Part shown: positions 912-30,013 of the stretch, one piece after another
Layout of the letters: each line of letters begins with the position of its first letter
How positions within the stretch are numbered: the stretch's first letter is position 1
Source: Planctomycetaceae bacterium
Lineage (GTDB): Bacteria > Planctomycetota > Phycisphaerae > Phycisphaerales > SM1A02
Reading direction: 5' to 3'
Assembly: GCA_947480055.1 (NCBI GenBank)
Contig: CANKBX010000003.1
Coordinates: 1-45,824 of the forward strand
DNA: 45,824 nt
Notes under the pieces: model-generated
Database searches by the model: none
What the model was told of the DNA's origin: nothing
Seen by the model: only the letters and a program-made list of their open reading frames with translations
Translations under genes and position numbers: made by a program

Positions 912-1529
912 ATGAATTTTGTGGCGAAAATATTTATTTCAAGGAATACAAATCGATTCACGGCGACTTGCATGATTGTTATTACAGCAGCGTGGAATTT
1001 TGGTTGCGTGACAACAACCACGCCCGTGAATGAAGATCAGTGGTTGCCCAGGCGTGATGCTCCCACCGCGGTGAAGCAAAATGCGAAGTCAGATGAGAAG
1101 TCAGATGCGAAGTCGGGCGCATTGCCAAACGATAAGCCTCGGGCGCAAGCATCAACCGAACCAGTGGTGAAACCGTGGGATATGCCCGCGGTTTCCGCGA
1201 CTAAGTCGGATTTAACTCAGCCGAGCTCGCAACAAATGCGGCAGTGTTTAGAGGGCGCGACTTGGATCAAACTTGATGAGAACGGCACGCGCCGGCGAAG
1301 TTTGAAATTAAATGCGGACGGAACATTTGTCGCCAAATCCGACGGCGAAAGTGGCGAGTTACCGGCATTCACTGGATTACTGGTGCAAGCGAAAGGCCAA
1401 TGGTCGGTCAAGGAAAATGAGTTGAGATTGCTTCCGCATGCGGGCGATCCAGTTGTGGTGCAACTGCAATGGCTTGGTGACAAGCGCTTGGTCATGATGA
1501 ACGGCGAGTCGTGGATGCGAAGCCAGTGA
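912..1529 (+). CDS. Putative lipoprotein, function unknown
   Basis: The frame opens at 861, but a start at 912 gives a more natural export signal: a short N-region with Lys and Arg, a hydrophobic stretch MIVITAAW, then NFGC as a weak lipobox (Cys at about residue 32). ATG 972 is also possible. A low-complexity linker with repeated K-S-D/A motifs and several prolines follows (about residues 50-110). The C-terminal 95 residues look like a small beta-rich domain with a motif pattern (LNADGTF, GQWSVKENELRL) seen in lipocalin-like or META-like folds that describe how a value departs from a baseline; that resemblance is only structural intuition. No enzyme motif is recognised. It is divergent from the GH63 gene, so their promoters must share 855-911 or the region just downstream. 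Confidence 0.6.
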   Translation: MNFVAKIFISRNTNRFTATCMIVITAAWNFGCVTTTTPVNEDQWLPRRDAPTAVKQNAKSDEKSDAKSGALPNDKPRAQASTEPVVKPWDMPAVSATKSDLTQPSSQQMRQCLEGATWIKLDENGTRRRSLKLNADGTFVAKSDGESGELPAFTGLLVQAKGQWSVKENELRLLPHAGDPVVVQLQWLGDKRLVMMNGESWMRSQ

Positions 1530-1570
1530 GGCGAATTATGAAATGTAGAAGTACAAGTTGCCCGAAAGAC

Positions 1571-2545
1571 TTAGCCTTCATCGGCGCGCATGATTGCAAT
1601 CTCTTGGCGCATTTGATCAAGCACGCGCATCTTTGCGTGCCGAATAGAAGCTTCGCTCATATCTAAATCTTTCGCGACGCTGGCAACTGGTTCGCCGCGA
1701 ACGCCGTAGCGCTCAAATGCCTCGAGCGTTTTGGGTTGGATATTTGTCTTCACTTTTTCCAAGGCGCGGCGCAACAAATGCTCCGTCCATTCACGATCCC
1801 ACGCCGCGTTTAATTCGCTTTCACCCGCCGGCGGATCATAAGATTCTGGCAAGCCAACGATGGGACGCTTGCGACGATAGCGATCACGGATGGCGTTGAG
1901 CGTGATGCGCTTGAGATAGCCGCGGAAGCGGCCCTTTGCGGGGTCATATTCAAAAACCCGGGACTGCTTGAAAAATCCAAGCATGACGTCTTGCAGAATG
2001 TCGTCCACTTCTTGTGGCTTTGCGCCGGCGTTGCGGGCGAACCCCGCGATCACGGAGCCATACATTTTTGAGAAATCATTCCAACCAACTTGGCGATCAA
2101 GCGTTCCATCGGCGCGCAGACGCAACAACATGGATGCGCTGGTTTGATACGGATCTTTGGAATCAGTTGGTGGCGGCGGAAGTTCTGGAATTTCCTGTTC
2201 GCCATCGCCATCATCTTCATCGGTGGTTGTGCGCGCGATAAATGTCCACGGCCCAATGGCGAGCACATCGCGGTCATGTAATTCCATTTTTTCATTTGGC
2301 TCAAGGCGCACGCCATTCAATAAAGTTCCCAGTGAACTTGTGGCGTCCTCAATGGTCGCGCCAGCGCGATCGATCCGCAGAACCGCGTGTCGACGCGAGA
2401 CAGATTCATCTTCTAGCACCAAACCAGAATCGGTTGCGCGGCCAATGATGCAAGTGGAATTTCCCTCTATACGAACACCGGGACAGGCTGGGCCGCTCGC
2501 CCGAATGAGCGAAAGAAATTTATTTGTTTTTGGGAGGGGCGCCAT
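1571..2545 (-). CDS. FHA-domain / ECF-type sigma-70 fusion protein
   Basis: 324 aa. Residues 25-105 form a forkhead-associated domain with G35-R36, the S50-R-R-H53 phosphothreonine-binding motif and N77-G78. An acidic, proline-rich linker (about 108-135) leads to sigma region 2 (about 155-225: DDILQDVMLGFF, then GRFRGYLKRI and NAIRDRYRRKR) and a region-4 helix-turn-helix (about 262-316: VASVAKDLDMSEASIRHAK). Sigma-70 ECF factors direct RNA polymerase to particular promoters; FHA domains dock on phosphothreonine peptides. The gene lies 51 bp downstream of a Ser/Thr kinase on the same strand and no anti-sigma factor is next to it. Control by kinase phosphorylation is therefore a reasonable inference. 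Domain calls are firm; the regulatory link is inferred. Confidence 0.9.
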   Translation of the reverse strand: MAPLPKTNKFLSLIRASGPACPGVRIEGNSTCIIGRATDSGLVLEDESVSRRHAVLRIDRAGATIEDATSSLGTLLNGVRLEPNEKMELHDRDVLAIGPWTFIARTTTDEDDGDGEQEIPELPPPPTDSKDPYQTSASMLLRLRADGTLDRQVGWNDFSKMYGSVIAGFARNAGAKPQEVDDILQDVMLGFFKQSRVFEYDPAKGRFRGYLKRITLNAIRDRYRRKRPIVGLPESYDPPAGESELNAAWDREWTEHLLRRALEKVKTNIQPKTLEAFERYGVRGEPVASVAKDLDMSEASIRHAKMRVLDQMRQEIAIMRADEG

Positions 2546-2596
2546 GGTGAAGTGTGAATAGTGACCGCAAATCGGCGACCATGCAAGCCAACATTT

Positions 2597-4423
2597 TTAT
2601 TGATTGGCGGACGTGTTGGCGGGCGTCACGCTTTGGCTGGTTGAAAGCGTTCGGAACAAAGAACTTATTTTTTTTGATAGTTTTTCATTGAGTTCCGGGG
2701 CATCTTCCAGCGCGGTTTGTGCTTTATTAAGAAATGACACAGCATCAGAATTTTTGCCTTCTGCCGCTGAAATACGCGCCAATTCTAAATATGCCCGCGC
2801 AAGGTCGTCGGTGTCGGCTGGCGATTCAGACAAAAATTCCCGGCGGGCCTTGTCGGCGTTGCGGCGCGCATCAATGAACGAACCATCCGCGCGAAGCGAT
2901 CCAGCAAGAAGCAGTTCCGTTTCCGCAAGTAGGCGCGTTTGATCATTTGATTGAAGAAGTTCAATGGCTCGCGAAAATTCCTGGGCGGCAAGGTCGTTGC
3001 GATTTTGCGAAATCCACAAGTGACCCATGGACGCACGCACGCGCGCCTCCATGATTGGATCGTTGTTCAAGCGAAGTCCGGCAAGTCGGCTGGCCTCCGC
3101 CAAAATGTCCGCCGAGGTTCGTGGGGTCGCGGCCGGTTTAGAAATAATTTCAGTAAGCAACTCCGTTATGAGAATGGTGGCGTCGTTGGCGCCTTGCGAA
3201 GCAATTTCGGCGCGATCTTTTGCCGCCAAGGCCATGGCGCGCTGTGAACGCGCGTTTAAGAAACTCGCAGTCAAGGCAAGAATGGCGATCAACGCAAGAG
3301 AGACGGCGAGTGGGTGGTGACTCATCGCGCGCTTCAGTCTTCGCGGCGGCGTGTCGGGGCGCGCATGCACGGATTCGCCGCGGCGGAAACGCTCCAGATC
3401 TTGCGCAAGAGTGAGCGCGGAGTCGTAGCGGCGGCGCGGATCGCGGCAAAGACAGCGCGAGATGATGGCGTTGAGATCTCCGCGCAATTCAGAAATAATA
3501 TGAGCGGGAGTTGTGGATCGATTTTGCGCGGCCAATTTCTTTTCCGCATCGGGAAGTTTTTTAAACAACTCATGAGCCGCGCGGGTGTCATCATCATCGG
3601 GCAAACAGTCGGTGAGAAGCCGCAGCATGACCGCGCCAAGCGAGTAAATATCCATGCGGGAATTCGCCTCCCCGGTGCGTAGATTTCGCGCTTCGGGCGC
3701 CATGAAAGTTGGAGTGCCAACCAAAGCACCCGCGCGTTCATCGGGATTCGTAGGATCAAACGCGGCGCGCGCAACTCCGAAATCAATCACTTTCACAACC
3801 GCTTCATCGGCATCAAGAGAAACAAGAATGTTGGAGGGCTTGAGATCGCGGTGAATCACGCCGCGTTGATGGGCGTGATGAACCGCGCGGCAAACTTGCG
3901 CCATGAGATCCATTCGTTGACCAAGTGAATGACCTGCGACATCACAAGCTTGTGTGATTGGAGAACCCGCGGCCAATTCCATCGCGAACCACGGACGACC
4001 ATCGGCTGATTCACCGGCCTCGAAAATTTTGATCAAGCCAGGATGATCAAGAAGCGCGACAACGTGGCGCTCGCTCTCAAAGCGCGCGCGACTTGATGCG
4101 TCAAGGCGATCGGGTCGAAGAATTTTAAACGCCACAGAGCGGCGCAGTGGTTCATCTTGTTCCGCAAGCCACACAATTCCAAAGCCGCCCTCACCAAGCA
4201 CGCTGCGAAGGTGATACGGACCAATGCAAATTTCCGGTTTGATTTCTGTTTGCCCCAAAACGCTTTGCGGCGCGTTGCCCGCGGTGGGCAGCAATTCCAA
4301 AGCCTTGTTCAGCGTGGAGCGGTTGCCGTGAAGCAACTCGCGCAAAGCGGCCGCGCGGCGAGATGCGGGTAGCGAAAGCACCTTTCGAATCGCTTCTTCT
4401 GCTGTAATAGCCGGCAACGTCAT
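2597..4423 (-). CDS. Membrane Ser/Thr protein kinase with C-terminal TPR region
   Basis: 608 aa from the ATG at 4423. The frame stays open upstream to 4768, but that part is antisense to the dehydrogenase at 4463 and has no kinase features. All catalytic elements of a Hanks-type kinase are present: Gly-rich loop GEGGFGIV (77-84), VAFK with the ATP lysine K100, catalytic loop HRDLKPSN (191-198), DFG (214-216) and APE (242-244). One membrane segment follows (about 371-390), and residues about 440-580 carry TPR-like helical pairs that would lie outside the cytoplasmic membrane. Planctomycetes encode many kinases of this layout. The gene is probably co-transcribed with the FHA-sigma gene 51 bp downstream. 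The input signal and substrate are not evident. Confidence 0.93.
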   Translation of the reverse strand: MTLPAITAEEAIRKVLSLPASRRAAALRELLHGNRSTLNKALELLPTAGNAPQSVLGQTEIKPEICIGPYHLRSVLGEGGFGIVWLAEQDEPLRRSVAFKILRPDRLDASSRARFESERHVVALLDHPGLIKIFEAGESADGRPWFAMELAAGSPITQACDVAGHSLGQRMDLMAQVCRAVHHAHQRGVIHRDLKPSNILVSLDADEAVVKVIDFGVARAAFDPTNPDERAGALVGTPTFMAPEARNLRTGEANSRMDIYSLGAVMLRLLTDCLPDDDDTRAAHELFKKLPDAEKKLAAQNRSTTPAHIISELRGDLNAIISRCLCRDPRRRYDSALTLAQDLERFRRGESVHARPDTPPRRLKRAMSHHPLAVSLALIAILALTASFLNARSQRAMALAAKDRAEIASQGANDATILITELLTEIISKPAATPRTSADILAEASRLAGLRLNNDPIMEARVRASMGHLWISQNRNDLAAQEFSRAIELLQSNDQTRLLAETELLLAGSLRADGSFIDARRNADKARREFLSESPADTDDLARAYLELARISAAEGKNSDAVSFLNKAQTALEDAPELNEKLSKKISSLFRTLSTSQSVTPANTSANQ

Positions 4424-4462
4424 GCGAGCATGGTAAGCATTACGGCGGTTACCTTTAAGCGT

Positions 4463-5299
4463 ATGGACAACTTTTCTTTGCAAGGAAAAACCGCGCTGGT
4501 GTGCGGGGCGACACAGGGAATTGGTTACGCGACGGCGCAGGCGCTGGCCGCGGCGGGAGCCAGGGTGATTCTTTGTGGACGCAATGATGAAGGTCTTGCA
4601 AAGGCGCTTGAAGAATTGCCCAAGGTGAACCAAGTTGCGCGTGGCGTGAATACAAATGCTGAGTCGGTGACCACGTATCAACACGAAATTATGTTGGTGG
4701 ACCACGCAAATCCTGTGGCGGTGGAGAAAGCTGCCGACGCATTGGTGGCGCGAATCGGCGCGGTGCATATTTTGGTTGTGAACACAGGCGCGCCGGAAGC
4801 GGGATATTTAATAGACGCGTCAACGGATGAAATTGACAAGTGCGTTGCGCAACTTTTATCCGCCGCGCACAAGTTAGCGCAAGTGTGCGCGCCGGTCATG
4901 CGCGCGGCGAAATATGGACGGATTATTGTCGTGGGCAGCACAAGTATTGAGCGGCCAATTCGTGGTCATGGAGTGAGCAATGTCGCGCGCGCGGCCATGG
5001 CCAATTGGACCCGCACGCTTGCGGGAGAACTTGGTGGATTTGCAATTACGGCGAACTTGATCATGCCAGGACCAACGCGTACGCAACGACTTGAGTCCAT
5101 CATTGCTGGGCGCGCCAAGCGTTCAGGTAGTTCTGTTGAGGAAGTGGAGGCGTCGATGATCGGAAAAATTCCTACGGGTCGGTTTGCATCGCCACAAGAA
5201 ATTGCCGCGGTGATTGCGTTTATCGCTTCGCCCGCGGCGGCGTATGTGAACGGCGCGTTGATTGCGGTTGATGGCGGAATGTTGTGCATGCAGAGTTGA
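4463..5299 (+). CDS. SDR-family oxidoreductase with non-canonical active site
   Basis: 278 aa from ATG 4463; an in-frame ATG at 4430 is less likely. It is a Rossmann-fold short-chain dehydrogenase, with the dinucleotide motif CGATQGIG (14-21), NTG in place of NAG (107-109), the catalytic-strand serines GSTS (158-161), and the PG motif (LIMPGPTRT) after strand 6. The usual Tyr-x3-Lys pair is replaced by Ser172-x3-Arg176 (VSNVARAAM). A subgroup annotated as FabG-like or generic SDR is known with SN-x-x-R at this place, so this is probably a real lineage rather than a sequencing fault. The C-terminal cofactor-side motif (NGALIAVDGG) is typical. The gene starts 39 bp from the divergent kinase. 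Substrate unknown; oxidoreductase activity is not assured without Tyr/Lys. Confidence 0.85.
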   Translation: MDNFSLQGKTALVCGATQGIGYATAQALAAAGARVILCGRNDEGLAKALEELPKVNQVARGVNTNAESVTTYQHEIMLVDHANPVAVEKAADALVARIGAVHILVVNTGAPEAGYLIDASTDEIDKCVAQLLSAAHKLAQVCAPVMRAAKYGRIIVVGSTSIERPIRGHGVSNVARAAMANWTRTLAGELGGFAITANLIMPGPTRTQRLESIIAGRAKRSGSSVEEVEASMIGKIPTGRFASPQEIAAVIAFIASPAAAYVNGALIAVDGGMLCMQS

Positions 5300-28330: not shown

Positions 28331-30013
28331 ATGCCCGCCGTACACATTCACAACACGCTTACTGGTGAACTTGCCGAAATAAATCCCATCGCGGGCGCGG
28401 CTGGTCCCGTCACTTTTTATACGTGCGGGCCAACGGTGTACGACGACGCGCACATTGGCAACTTTCGCTCATTTCTAAACGCCGATATTTTGCGCCGCAC
28501 CATTGAACTCACTGGCACGCCCGTTCGCCACGTCATGAACATTACCGATGTTGGCCACATGACAGACGACACCAACGCCGACGGCGCCGGCGAGGACAAG
28601 ATGGCCGTGGCGGGTCGCCGTCTTTTGGAAGCCAAAAAATCTGGAAAAATTCACGCCGACGTCGCCATTGATGCCAACGATCCAATGGCTATCGCGGATT
28701 TTTACGCCAACCGATTTCTAGAAGACGCGCGCCTGTTGGGTCTGAAAGTTGCCATTGAAGCGCAAAGCGATCCATCGCTTATGCCGCGGCCAACTCAGTG
28801 GATTTCACAAATGCTTGACATGATCAAGCAACTCATTGAACGCGGGCACGCATATGTTGCCAGCGACGGCGCGGTGTATTTCAATGTGAAAAGTTTCGCT
28901 GACTACGGCAAACTTTCCGGAAACACGCTTGAGAATTTGCGCGAGGGCGAGGGCGGGCGCATTAGTGCGCAGCATCAGGCCGCCAAGAAAAATCCTGGCG
29001 ATTTTATGTTGTGGAAGCCGGATCCGCATCACGTGTTGAAATGGGATTCGCCCTACGGCGCGGGATATCCCGGCTGGCATTTGGAATGCTCCGCCATGGC
29101 CGCGGGTTTGCTTGGTGCGGAAATAGATATTCACTCCGGCGGCGAGGACAATATTTTTCCGCACCACGAATGTGAGATTGCGCAAAGTCGTTGCGCGCAC
29201 AACAAGCCAAGTTTTGCGCGCTTGTGGTTCCACACGCGCCACTTGATTGTTGAGGGCGAGAAAATGTCCAAGAGCAAAGGCAATTTTTTTACCGCGCGCG
29301 ACTTGTTCGCCAAGGGCGTTACACCCGCCGCGCTTCGCCTAGAAATTACGCGCACGCATTACCGCACCAATGCCAACTTCACTATGCAAGGTTTGGCAGA
29401 TTGCCAGCGCATGATTGATCGATGGAGTCGCGCCGCGGAGGCGTTGCAAGCGAAAGTTGCGGCGGGCACGCCACGTTTGGTGGGAGGCGACGCACACAAT
29501 TCCGCCAGCGCCAAAAACGCAAACGTAAACGCGAACGCGAACGCAAACGCAAACGCAAACGCAAACACAAGCGCAAACGTAAATGCAAACGCAAATATAA
29601 ATACAAATGCATGCGCAAACATCAATCACAACGCGCCGGCCGGCCCATTTGAAACCGCATTGCCGCGCTTCACCCAAGCGTTGTGTGAAGACCTAAACAT
29701 GGCGCGCGCAATTGCGGCGCTGAACGAAGCAGTCGCCGTTGAAGACAACTCCGCGTGCGCGCATCGCGAACTTGCGGCGCTGCACAAAATGGATTCCGTT
29801 CTTGGCGTGCTAGAGCGCAACACTCAAGTTGCAACCAGTGGCGACAGCGACTTCGAAGCCAAAGTGAACGCGTTGATTGAAGTCCGCGCCTCCGCGCGCC
29901 GCAACAAAGATTTTGCCGCAAGCGACCGCGCTCGTGATGAACTTGTGTCGTTAGGCGTGCAAATTAAAGATGGCGCCACGGGAACCACTTGGACGCGCGC
30001 GGTTCGTGCTTGA
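28331..30013 (+). CDS. cysS: Cysteine-tRNA ligase with a low-complexity Asn/Ala insert
   Basis: 560 aa, longer than the usual 460-490. Class I catalytic core: FYTCGPTVYDDAHIGNFRSF carries the zinc cysteine and the HIGH-type HIGN; a second zinc-binding Cys is in GWHLECSAMA, and HHECEIAQS gives His and Glu/Cys ligands. The KMSKS loop is KMSKSKGNFF. The anticodon-side helical region (DALR) starts near residue 340. Within it, at about residues 392-437, sits a run of alternating Asn and Ala (with Thr, Val, Ile) encoded by an imperfect hexanucleotide repeat; this accounts for most of the extra length. The C-terminal part continues normally (VALIEVRASARRNKDFAASD-like). An essential housekeeping enzyme, so probably functional despite the insert. 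Confidence 0.96.
   Translation: MPAVHIHNTLTGELAEINPIAGAAGPVTFYTCGPTVYDDAHIGNFRSFLNADILRRTIELTGTPVRHVMNITDVGHMTDDTNADGAGEDKMAVAGRRLLEAKKSGKIHADVAIDANDPMAIADFYANRFLEDARLLGLKVAIEAQSDPSLMPRPTQWISQMLDMIKQLIERGHAYVASDGAVYFNVKSFADYGKLSGNTLENLREGEGGRISAQHQAAKKNPGDFMLWKPDPHHVLKWDSPYGAGYPGWHLECSAMAAGLLGAEIDIHSGGEDNIFPHHECEIAQSRCAHNKPSFARLWFHTRHLIVEGEKMSKSKGNFFTARDLFAKGVTPAALRLEITRTHYRTNANFTMQGLADCQRMIDRWSRAAEALQAKVAAGTPRLVGGDAHNSASAKNANVNANANANANANANTSANVNANANINTNACANINHNAPAGPFETALPRFTQALCEDLNMARAIAALNEAVAVEDNSACAHRELAALHKMDSVLGVLERNTQVATSGDSDFEAKVNALIEVRASARRNKDFAASDRARDELVSLGVQIKDGATGTTWTRAVRA
29514..29634 (+). repeat. Imperfect hexanucleotide repeat inside cysS
   Basis: Runs of AACGCA, AACGCG and AACGTA follow one another for about 120 bp; the middle part (roughly 29530-29566) is nearly perfect and the 3' part is degraded with AAATATAAATAC-type units. 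All units are multiples of six in the reading frame, so length changes add or remove Asn-Ala pairs without a frameshift. The complementary strand gives open frames only because of the repeat. Confidence 0.9.

Follow-up and report, generated by a model that had tools for sequence, protein, structure and literature searches.

How membrane kinases pass their signals to transcription is a question raised directly by a pair of genes in the 45,824-nucleotide stretch of planctomycete DNA analyzed here (the window). A transmembrane Hanks-type Ser/Thr kinase is encoded immediately before a protein that joins an FHA domain to an ECF sigma factor (hereafter FHA-sigma). Little is known about how planctomycetes couple their many Ser/Thr kinases to transcription, and no mechanism has been worked out for kinase-linked ECF groups in which the acidic DAED motif is retained. 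In the lineage described here, the sigma factor itself bears a phosphothreonine-reading domain. A sequence-only reading of the locus had proposed a two-gene unit in which the FHA domain docks on the phosphorylated loop of the kinase, so that the kinase sets sigma activity directly. The analysis below retains kinase control as the favored explanation, revises how the two proteins would meet, and weighs three other ways in which the FHA domain could be used.

The Kinase and FHA-Sigma Genes

Gene coordinates, Pfam profiles and AF2 models confirm both genes and the 51 bp that separate them. The features of the locus, in window coordinates, are as follows.

2597–4423, minus strand: gene for a transmembrane Hanks-type Ser/Thr kinase, 608 aa (profiles, fold match)
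4283–4285, minus strand: T47 codon, in a predicted cytoplasmic disordered segment (conservation in linked kinases, AF2)
3422–4216, minus strand: kinase domain, residues 70–334 (PF00069, E=2.2e-40)
3272–3328, minus strand: predicted transmembrane helix, residues ~366–384 (hydropathy)
2633–3115, minus strand: TPR-like helical-hairpin region, residues 437–597, predicted extracytoplasmic (PF13424 sub-threshold, AF2)
2546–2596, minus strand: 51-bp spacer from kinase stop to sigma start (gene coordinates)
1571–2545, minus strand: FHA-ECF sigma factor gene, 324 aa (Pfam and NCBIfam profiles, sigma-domain tree)
2252–2449, minus strand: FHA domain, residues 33–98, with phosphothreonine pocket G35, R36, S50, R51, H53 and N77 (PF00498, E=1.7e-16)
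2144–2227, minus strand: disordered linker joining FHA to sigma-2, residues 107–134 (AF2 pLDDT <50 at 109–134)
2141–2143, minus strand: T135 codon at the linker/sigma-2 junction, candidate phosphosite or helix N-cap (conservation, AF2)
1577–2140, minus strand: ECF sigma domains, sigma-2 at ~136–230 with EVDD at 179–182 and sigma-4 at ~242–323 (profiles, AF2 helices)

The kinase retains intact HRDLKPSN, DFG and APE motifs, and among solved folds the closest is that of Xanthomonas citri PknS (9eed; 38% identity, E=1.6e-17), with the next match at 4e-13. The extracytoplasmic TPR region claimed earlier is partly borne out: AF2 predicts an array of helical hairpins at residues 437–597, mostly with pLDDT values of 75–94, but the TPR match falls below the Pfam threshold (PF13424, 20.5 versus 30.1 bits). 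The spacer to the sigma gene varies from ~18 to 57 bp across the genus. No terminator-like site was found in the 51-bp spacer of the window, and scans for sigma-70 promoters and terminators over positions 1500–4600 gave matches no more often than chance. Among the genes neighboring FHA-sigma no match to an anti-sigma family was found, as had been claimed, and neither the 222-aa gene at 861–1529 nor the partial gene at 3–854 has a Pfam match.

On its other side, the kinase gene starts ~40 bp from a divergent SDR gene (window 4421–4465). The hexamer TACC(A/T)T lies 6–7 nt before each ATG of this pair, as TACCAT and TACCTT, and 11 of 12 aligned loci from the same genus retain the TACCAT on the kinase side. 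This pattern looks like a pair of leaderless divergent promoters.

In FHA-sigma, region 2 is matched at residues 161–227 (Sigma70_r2, PF04542, E=8.8e-12). Region 4 taken alone scores under its Pfam cut-off (11.9 versus 25.7 bits), but it is included in the match to the ECF superfamily model TIGR02937 (residues 157–315, E=2.4e-15) and forms a confident helical bundle in the AF2 model. That model, built from a 30-row alignment, has a mean pLDDT of 84 and a pTM of 0.78, and it displays a confident FHA beta-sandwich, disorder at 109–134 and two helical sigma domains. The sigma portion thus consists of sigma-2 and sigma-4 only, which is the layout of ECF (group IV) factors.

The intact FHA domain with an SRRH motif described in the sequence-only reading is upheld. 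The pocket residues expected of a phosphothreonine-binding FHA domain (GR, SxxH and N on a beta-sandwich) are present as GR at 35–36, SRRH at 50–53 and N77. Across 74 FHA-sigma relatives, G35, R36, S50, R51 and H53 are identical in every member, giving the pattern GR...SRxH, and N77 is kept in 68. The same pocket is found with and without an adjacent kinase gene, so the loss of the pocket across the family, which had been named in advance as a reason to give up the idea, is not seen. FHA-bearing proteins were defined by the FHA profile, and badly degenerate domains (such as that of L106, below) therefore fall outside this count. Five pocket residues identical in 74 of 74 proteins are what one would expect of a domain retained for phosphothreonine binding.

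The solved structures closest to this FHA domain, by both sequence and fold, are those of FhaA, GarA and OdhI, which are known phosphothreonine-dependent regulators; these proteins differ in having no sigma fusion. The fold is also near that of the DgcB FHA domain, which was solved with its own phosphorylated N-terminal peptide. Within the host genome, an FHA-GAF-SpoIIE phosphatase (L001:169–1770, contig 50) carries the FHA domain most like the FHA-sigma profile among five compared, and it is a possible domain donor.

Distribution and Gene Neighborhoods

Among 181 genomes searched within the family, full-length FHA-sigma proteins were found in ~15 genera. Wider samples, one of 397 genomes from the class and one of 392 from the phylum, partly overlapping, gave full-length matches in this one Phycisphaerales family only, and beyond it only the sigma half aligns. 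The expectation that an N-terminal FHA domain on a sigma factor is uncommon therefore holds for these samples. No published account of an ECF sigma factor with a fused FHA domain was found, although the literature searched was limited and this is weak evidence. Public records assign most of the named relatives to uncultured Phycisphaerales. Two contigs titled Singulisphaera sp. GP187 and Hyphomonas sp. TMED17 (L150 and L175) carry a Phycisphaerales FHA-sigma and are likely misnamed MAGs.

Two apparent variants were rejected on inspection. An FHA-sigma that seemed to end a single-chain protein of 1017 aa (L098) lies in a frame running in from the edge of the contig, and what precedes its FHA domain there is not a kinase. 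A tblastn match in Kiritimatiellota (L194, match 33–316) proved to span separate neighboring ECF and FHA-kinase genes. There, at L194:2125–4029, an ECF sigma gene directly precedes an FHA-kinase fusion gene, such that the same three modules occur rearranged, and both adjoin genes resembling type VI secretion parts.

Kinase neighbors were scored with purpose-built profiles on fetched neighborhoods, with adjacency taken as a distance within 400 bp. A same-strand kinase lies just upstream of 15 of the 74 FHA-sigma genes, a divergent one beside 8 and a downstream one beside 5; a contig edge intervenes at 4, and the remaining 42 have no kinase within 400 bp. The pair is thus not an obligate two-gene unit: the proposed check that a kinase be found next door each time gave a negative answer, and relatives of the kind named in advance as speaking against the idea, with an FHA-sigma but no kinase beside it, do exist. 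What stands of that claim is the operon-like pair within the genus. The upstream kinase is kept in all 13 same-genus genomes that provide enough contig, at sigma identities of 60–99%, and G176, from another genus, has the same kinase-sigma order, again with an SDR gene alongside. Chance pairing is unlikely given this conservation and the few kinase and FHA matches (seven and three, respectively) in the host genome, which measures 2.2 Mb and is 82% complete.

No near-full-length ortholog of the linked kinase was found in 10 genomes that belong neither to the genus nor to G176. The kinases that adjoin FHA-sigma in other genera are only distantly similar to that of the window, and genomes whose FHA-sigma has no adjacent kinase encode several to many kinases. 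In genus g7 (L071–L083), 8 of 12 loci have FHA-sigma divergent from a different transmembrane TPR kinase, at ~140 bp. A further group of genera (L084, L086–L090 and L097) has it ~1.3 kb from a small soluble kinase of ~280 aa on the same strand; HAD-like and Rrf2-like genes occupy the interval in L084.

Origin of the Fusion

All FHA-bearing rows of a 137-row maximum-likelihood tree built on the sigma domain fall in one clade with support of 95/83. This clade also includes two rows cut by contig edges and L106, whose FHA region is degenerate and lacks both GR and SRxH. Most FHA-less rows outside the clade have a downstream kinase; across the phylum, a same-strand kinase lies directly downstream, within 400 bp, in 52 of 78 FHA-less sigma relatives. 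Tree and neighborhood counts together place the window protein among planctomycete sigma groups whose ECF members neighbor kinases, and the downstream counts imply that the FHA domain joined an ECF sigma factor that was already kinase-linked. The fusion probably arose once inside this clade, and the simplest reading of the tree is a single origin followed by loss or rearrangement of the kinase neighbor. Some deep joins have low support, so a single origin is likely rather than proven.

Candidate Phosphorylation Sites

The activation loop would be the obvious docking site on the kinase, as had been proposed, but the sole conserved loop Thr in the linked kinases is T237, a structural P+1 residue, and the other loop Thr positions vary. 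Loop docking consequently finds no support as a conserved mechanism. Outside the kinase domain, T47 is the only Thr identical in all 14 linked kinases, and in the AF2 model it borders a segment whose pLDDT is under 50.

In the sigma factor, attention falls on T135. This residue is Thr in all 148 members of the kinase-linked clade that cover the site, at a mean pairwise identity of 39%, and none of the other sigma columns conserved at ≥93% in the clade, 13 in all with T135, is Ser or Thr. The aligned column holds Thr in ~4 of 35 same-order ECFs without an adjacent kinase, with the reservation that the control alignment of this short N-terminal stretch is uncertain by one or two residues and that in several control proteins a ‘TDE/SDE’ start places a T or S close by. 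Since kinase linkage and T135 co-occur in one clade, they represent one evolutionary association rather than many.

AF2 begins the first helix of sigma-2 (136–143) right after T135, and helix capping is, from this position, a full alternative explanation for the conservation. T135 is also equally invariant in clade members with and without an FHA domain, which weakens its standing as an FHA-specific ligand. With these two observations in mind, the residue need be neither an FHA ligand nor a phosphosite, and on conservation and modeling it is best described as a candidate phosphosite or helix cap.

A Proposed Kinase-to-Sigma Relay and Its Alternatives

The explanation that we favor, with somewhat more than even confidence, is that FHA-sigma is a kinase-controlled ECF sigma factor with an FHA input, forming a phospho-relay from membrane to promoter that would resemble EmbR-PknH. 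The transmembrane kinase would sense an external signal through its TPR-like domain and then autophosphorylate. The FHA domain, flexibly tethered to the sigma domains, would read phosphothreonine and recruit sigma to the kinase or another phosphoprotein. Sigma availability would then be set by the kinase, most likely through phosphorylation of the docked sigma, with T135 as the best candidate site. Where no kinase is adjacent, the FHA input would have to be served in trans by kinases encoded elsewhere. We infer the kinase-sigma operon, autophosphorylation, docking, T135 phosphorylation and the direction of the effect, be it activation or sequestration.

Evidence was counted on both sides of this relay. 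Conservation of the pair in 13 of 13 same-genus genomes and in G176 speaks for it, as does the nearness of the kinase fold to PknS, which phosphorylates the ECF sigma factor EcfK. Also on its side are the invariant FHA pocket, found even in the 42 proteins with no adjacent kinase, the kinase linkage of FHA-less relatives, the FHA fold match to FhaA, GarA and OdhI, the EmbR-PknH precedent and the strict conservation of T135. Against it stand the 42 unpaired FHA-sigmas, the 10 genomes in which no near-full-length ortholog of the linked kinase was found, the absence of a conserved loop Thr other than T237, and the presence of T135, with its helix-cap position, in FHA-less members too. The earlier claim of direct kinase control accordingly survives in part: the sigma factor belongs to a kinase-linked clade, but obligate pairing is not general.

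A broader version of the relay, which we regard as rather unlikely in full, is a class of ECF sigma factors governed by a single invariant Thr: kinases of the clade would phosphorylate T135 at the N-terminus of sigma-2, away from the known ECF43 sites in sigma-2.2 and the linker. The FHA domain gained in one Phycisphaerales family would then read the T135 mark or the kinase's own, such that adjacency would no longer be needed.

The best-surviving rival to the favored relay, though itself unlikely, is phospho-dependent sequestration, in which sigma is held at the membrane through its FHA domain by a phosphoprotein, either the autophosphorylated kinase or another one, that would serve as an anti-sigma switched by phosphorylation until dephosphorylation frees the intrinsically active factor. 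D182 of sigma-2.2 is present in 74 of 74 FHA-sigmas and acidic residues occupy 179 and 181 in nearly all, and with this motif intact the unphosphorylated sigma should bind core RNAP. The absence of a nearby anti-sigma gene, a flexible linker that ranges from 17 to 65 aa across relatives and the conserved T47 in a disordered cytoplasmic segment of the kinase would all suit a tether of this kind. However, no phosphatase gene lies next to the FHA-sigma locus, and in the kinase-linked ECFs characterized to date the kinase activates the sigma factor and does not sequester it (PMC13147305, PMC8999054).

Less probable is an intramolecular switch of the GarA/OdhI type, in which the FHA domain binds pT135 or a linker pThr of its own chain and closes or opens sigma without docking on the kinase. 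The FHA fold resemblances noted above, including DgcB with its own phosphopeptide, are compatible with such a switch; T135 is invariant and adjoins the flexible linker, which at 17–65 aa is probably long enough to loop back. The invariance of T135 is just as strict in FHA-less members, however, and FHA ligands bind in extended conformation, whereas T135 sits at a helix N-terminus.

An equally improbable proposal, that the FHA domain serves unrelated kinases or phosphoproteins in trans and that the neighboring kinase of this genus is not its partner, would explain the 42 relatives with no adjacent kinase, the distant similarity of the kinases next door in other genera and the six other kinases in the host genome, but it sits poorly with the tight same-strand spacing in 13 of 13 same-genus genomes and another genus and with kinase linkage being the usual state of the FHA-less sister lineages.

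Relationship to Known Systems

The favored relay finds its closest functional parallel in Mycobacterium tuberculosis, where EmbR requires its FHA domain both to interact with PknH, encoded in the same operon, and to be phosphorylated by it (PMC9239209, PMC4601284), although one of these studies failed to detect EmbR phosphorylation under normal growth (PMC9239209). In both systems the gene of a transmembrane Ser/Thr kinase adjoins that of a transcription regulator to which an FHA domain is fused. FHA-sigma does not have the EmbR-family architecture, however. EmbR is a SARP/OmpR-type DNA-binding activator with an OmpR-type HTH, a BTAD and a C-terminal FHA domain, whereas the FHA domain here is N-terminal, the effector is a subunit of RNAP and the gene order is reversed.

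Among ECF groups, PknS of X. citri directly phosphorylates EcfK (PMC13147305), and in ECF43 phosphorylation at sigma-2.2 restores a missing charge, the DAED motif being mostly absent (PMC8999054). Like EcfP-PknT and EcfK-PknS of ECF43, the window locus places an ECF gene beside that of a transmembrane Hanks kinase with no anti-sigma gene. The window sigma differs in having an FHA domain and in keeping the acidic EVDD where ECF43 members have an uncharged replacement with a phosphosite; charge restoration of the ECF43 type was therefore rejected. Phosphorylation control has also been proposed for ECF59, ECF61, ECF62 and ECF217, which include planctomycete examples and retain a DAED-like motif, and such groups may differ from EcfP in mechanism (PMC8999054). 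The sigma-then-kinase layout of the FHA-less relatives resembles these four groups in a comparison by layout and motif, and the review that proposed such control mentions no FHA domain (PMC8999054).

Overall, FHA-sigma is a variant of the kinase-linked ECF sigma factors and not a new kind of system. With kinase T47 and sigma T135 as two specific candidate residues, the missing step from kinase to transcription could be tested directly in E. coli.

Farther along the window, a gene resembling cysteinyl-tRNA synthetase (28331–30013) contains an in-frame Asn/Ala-rich hexanucleotide repeat of ~13 copies at 29515–29631.
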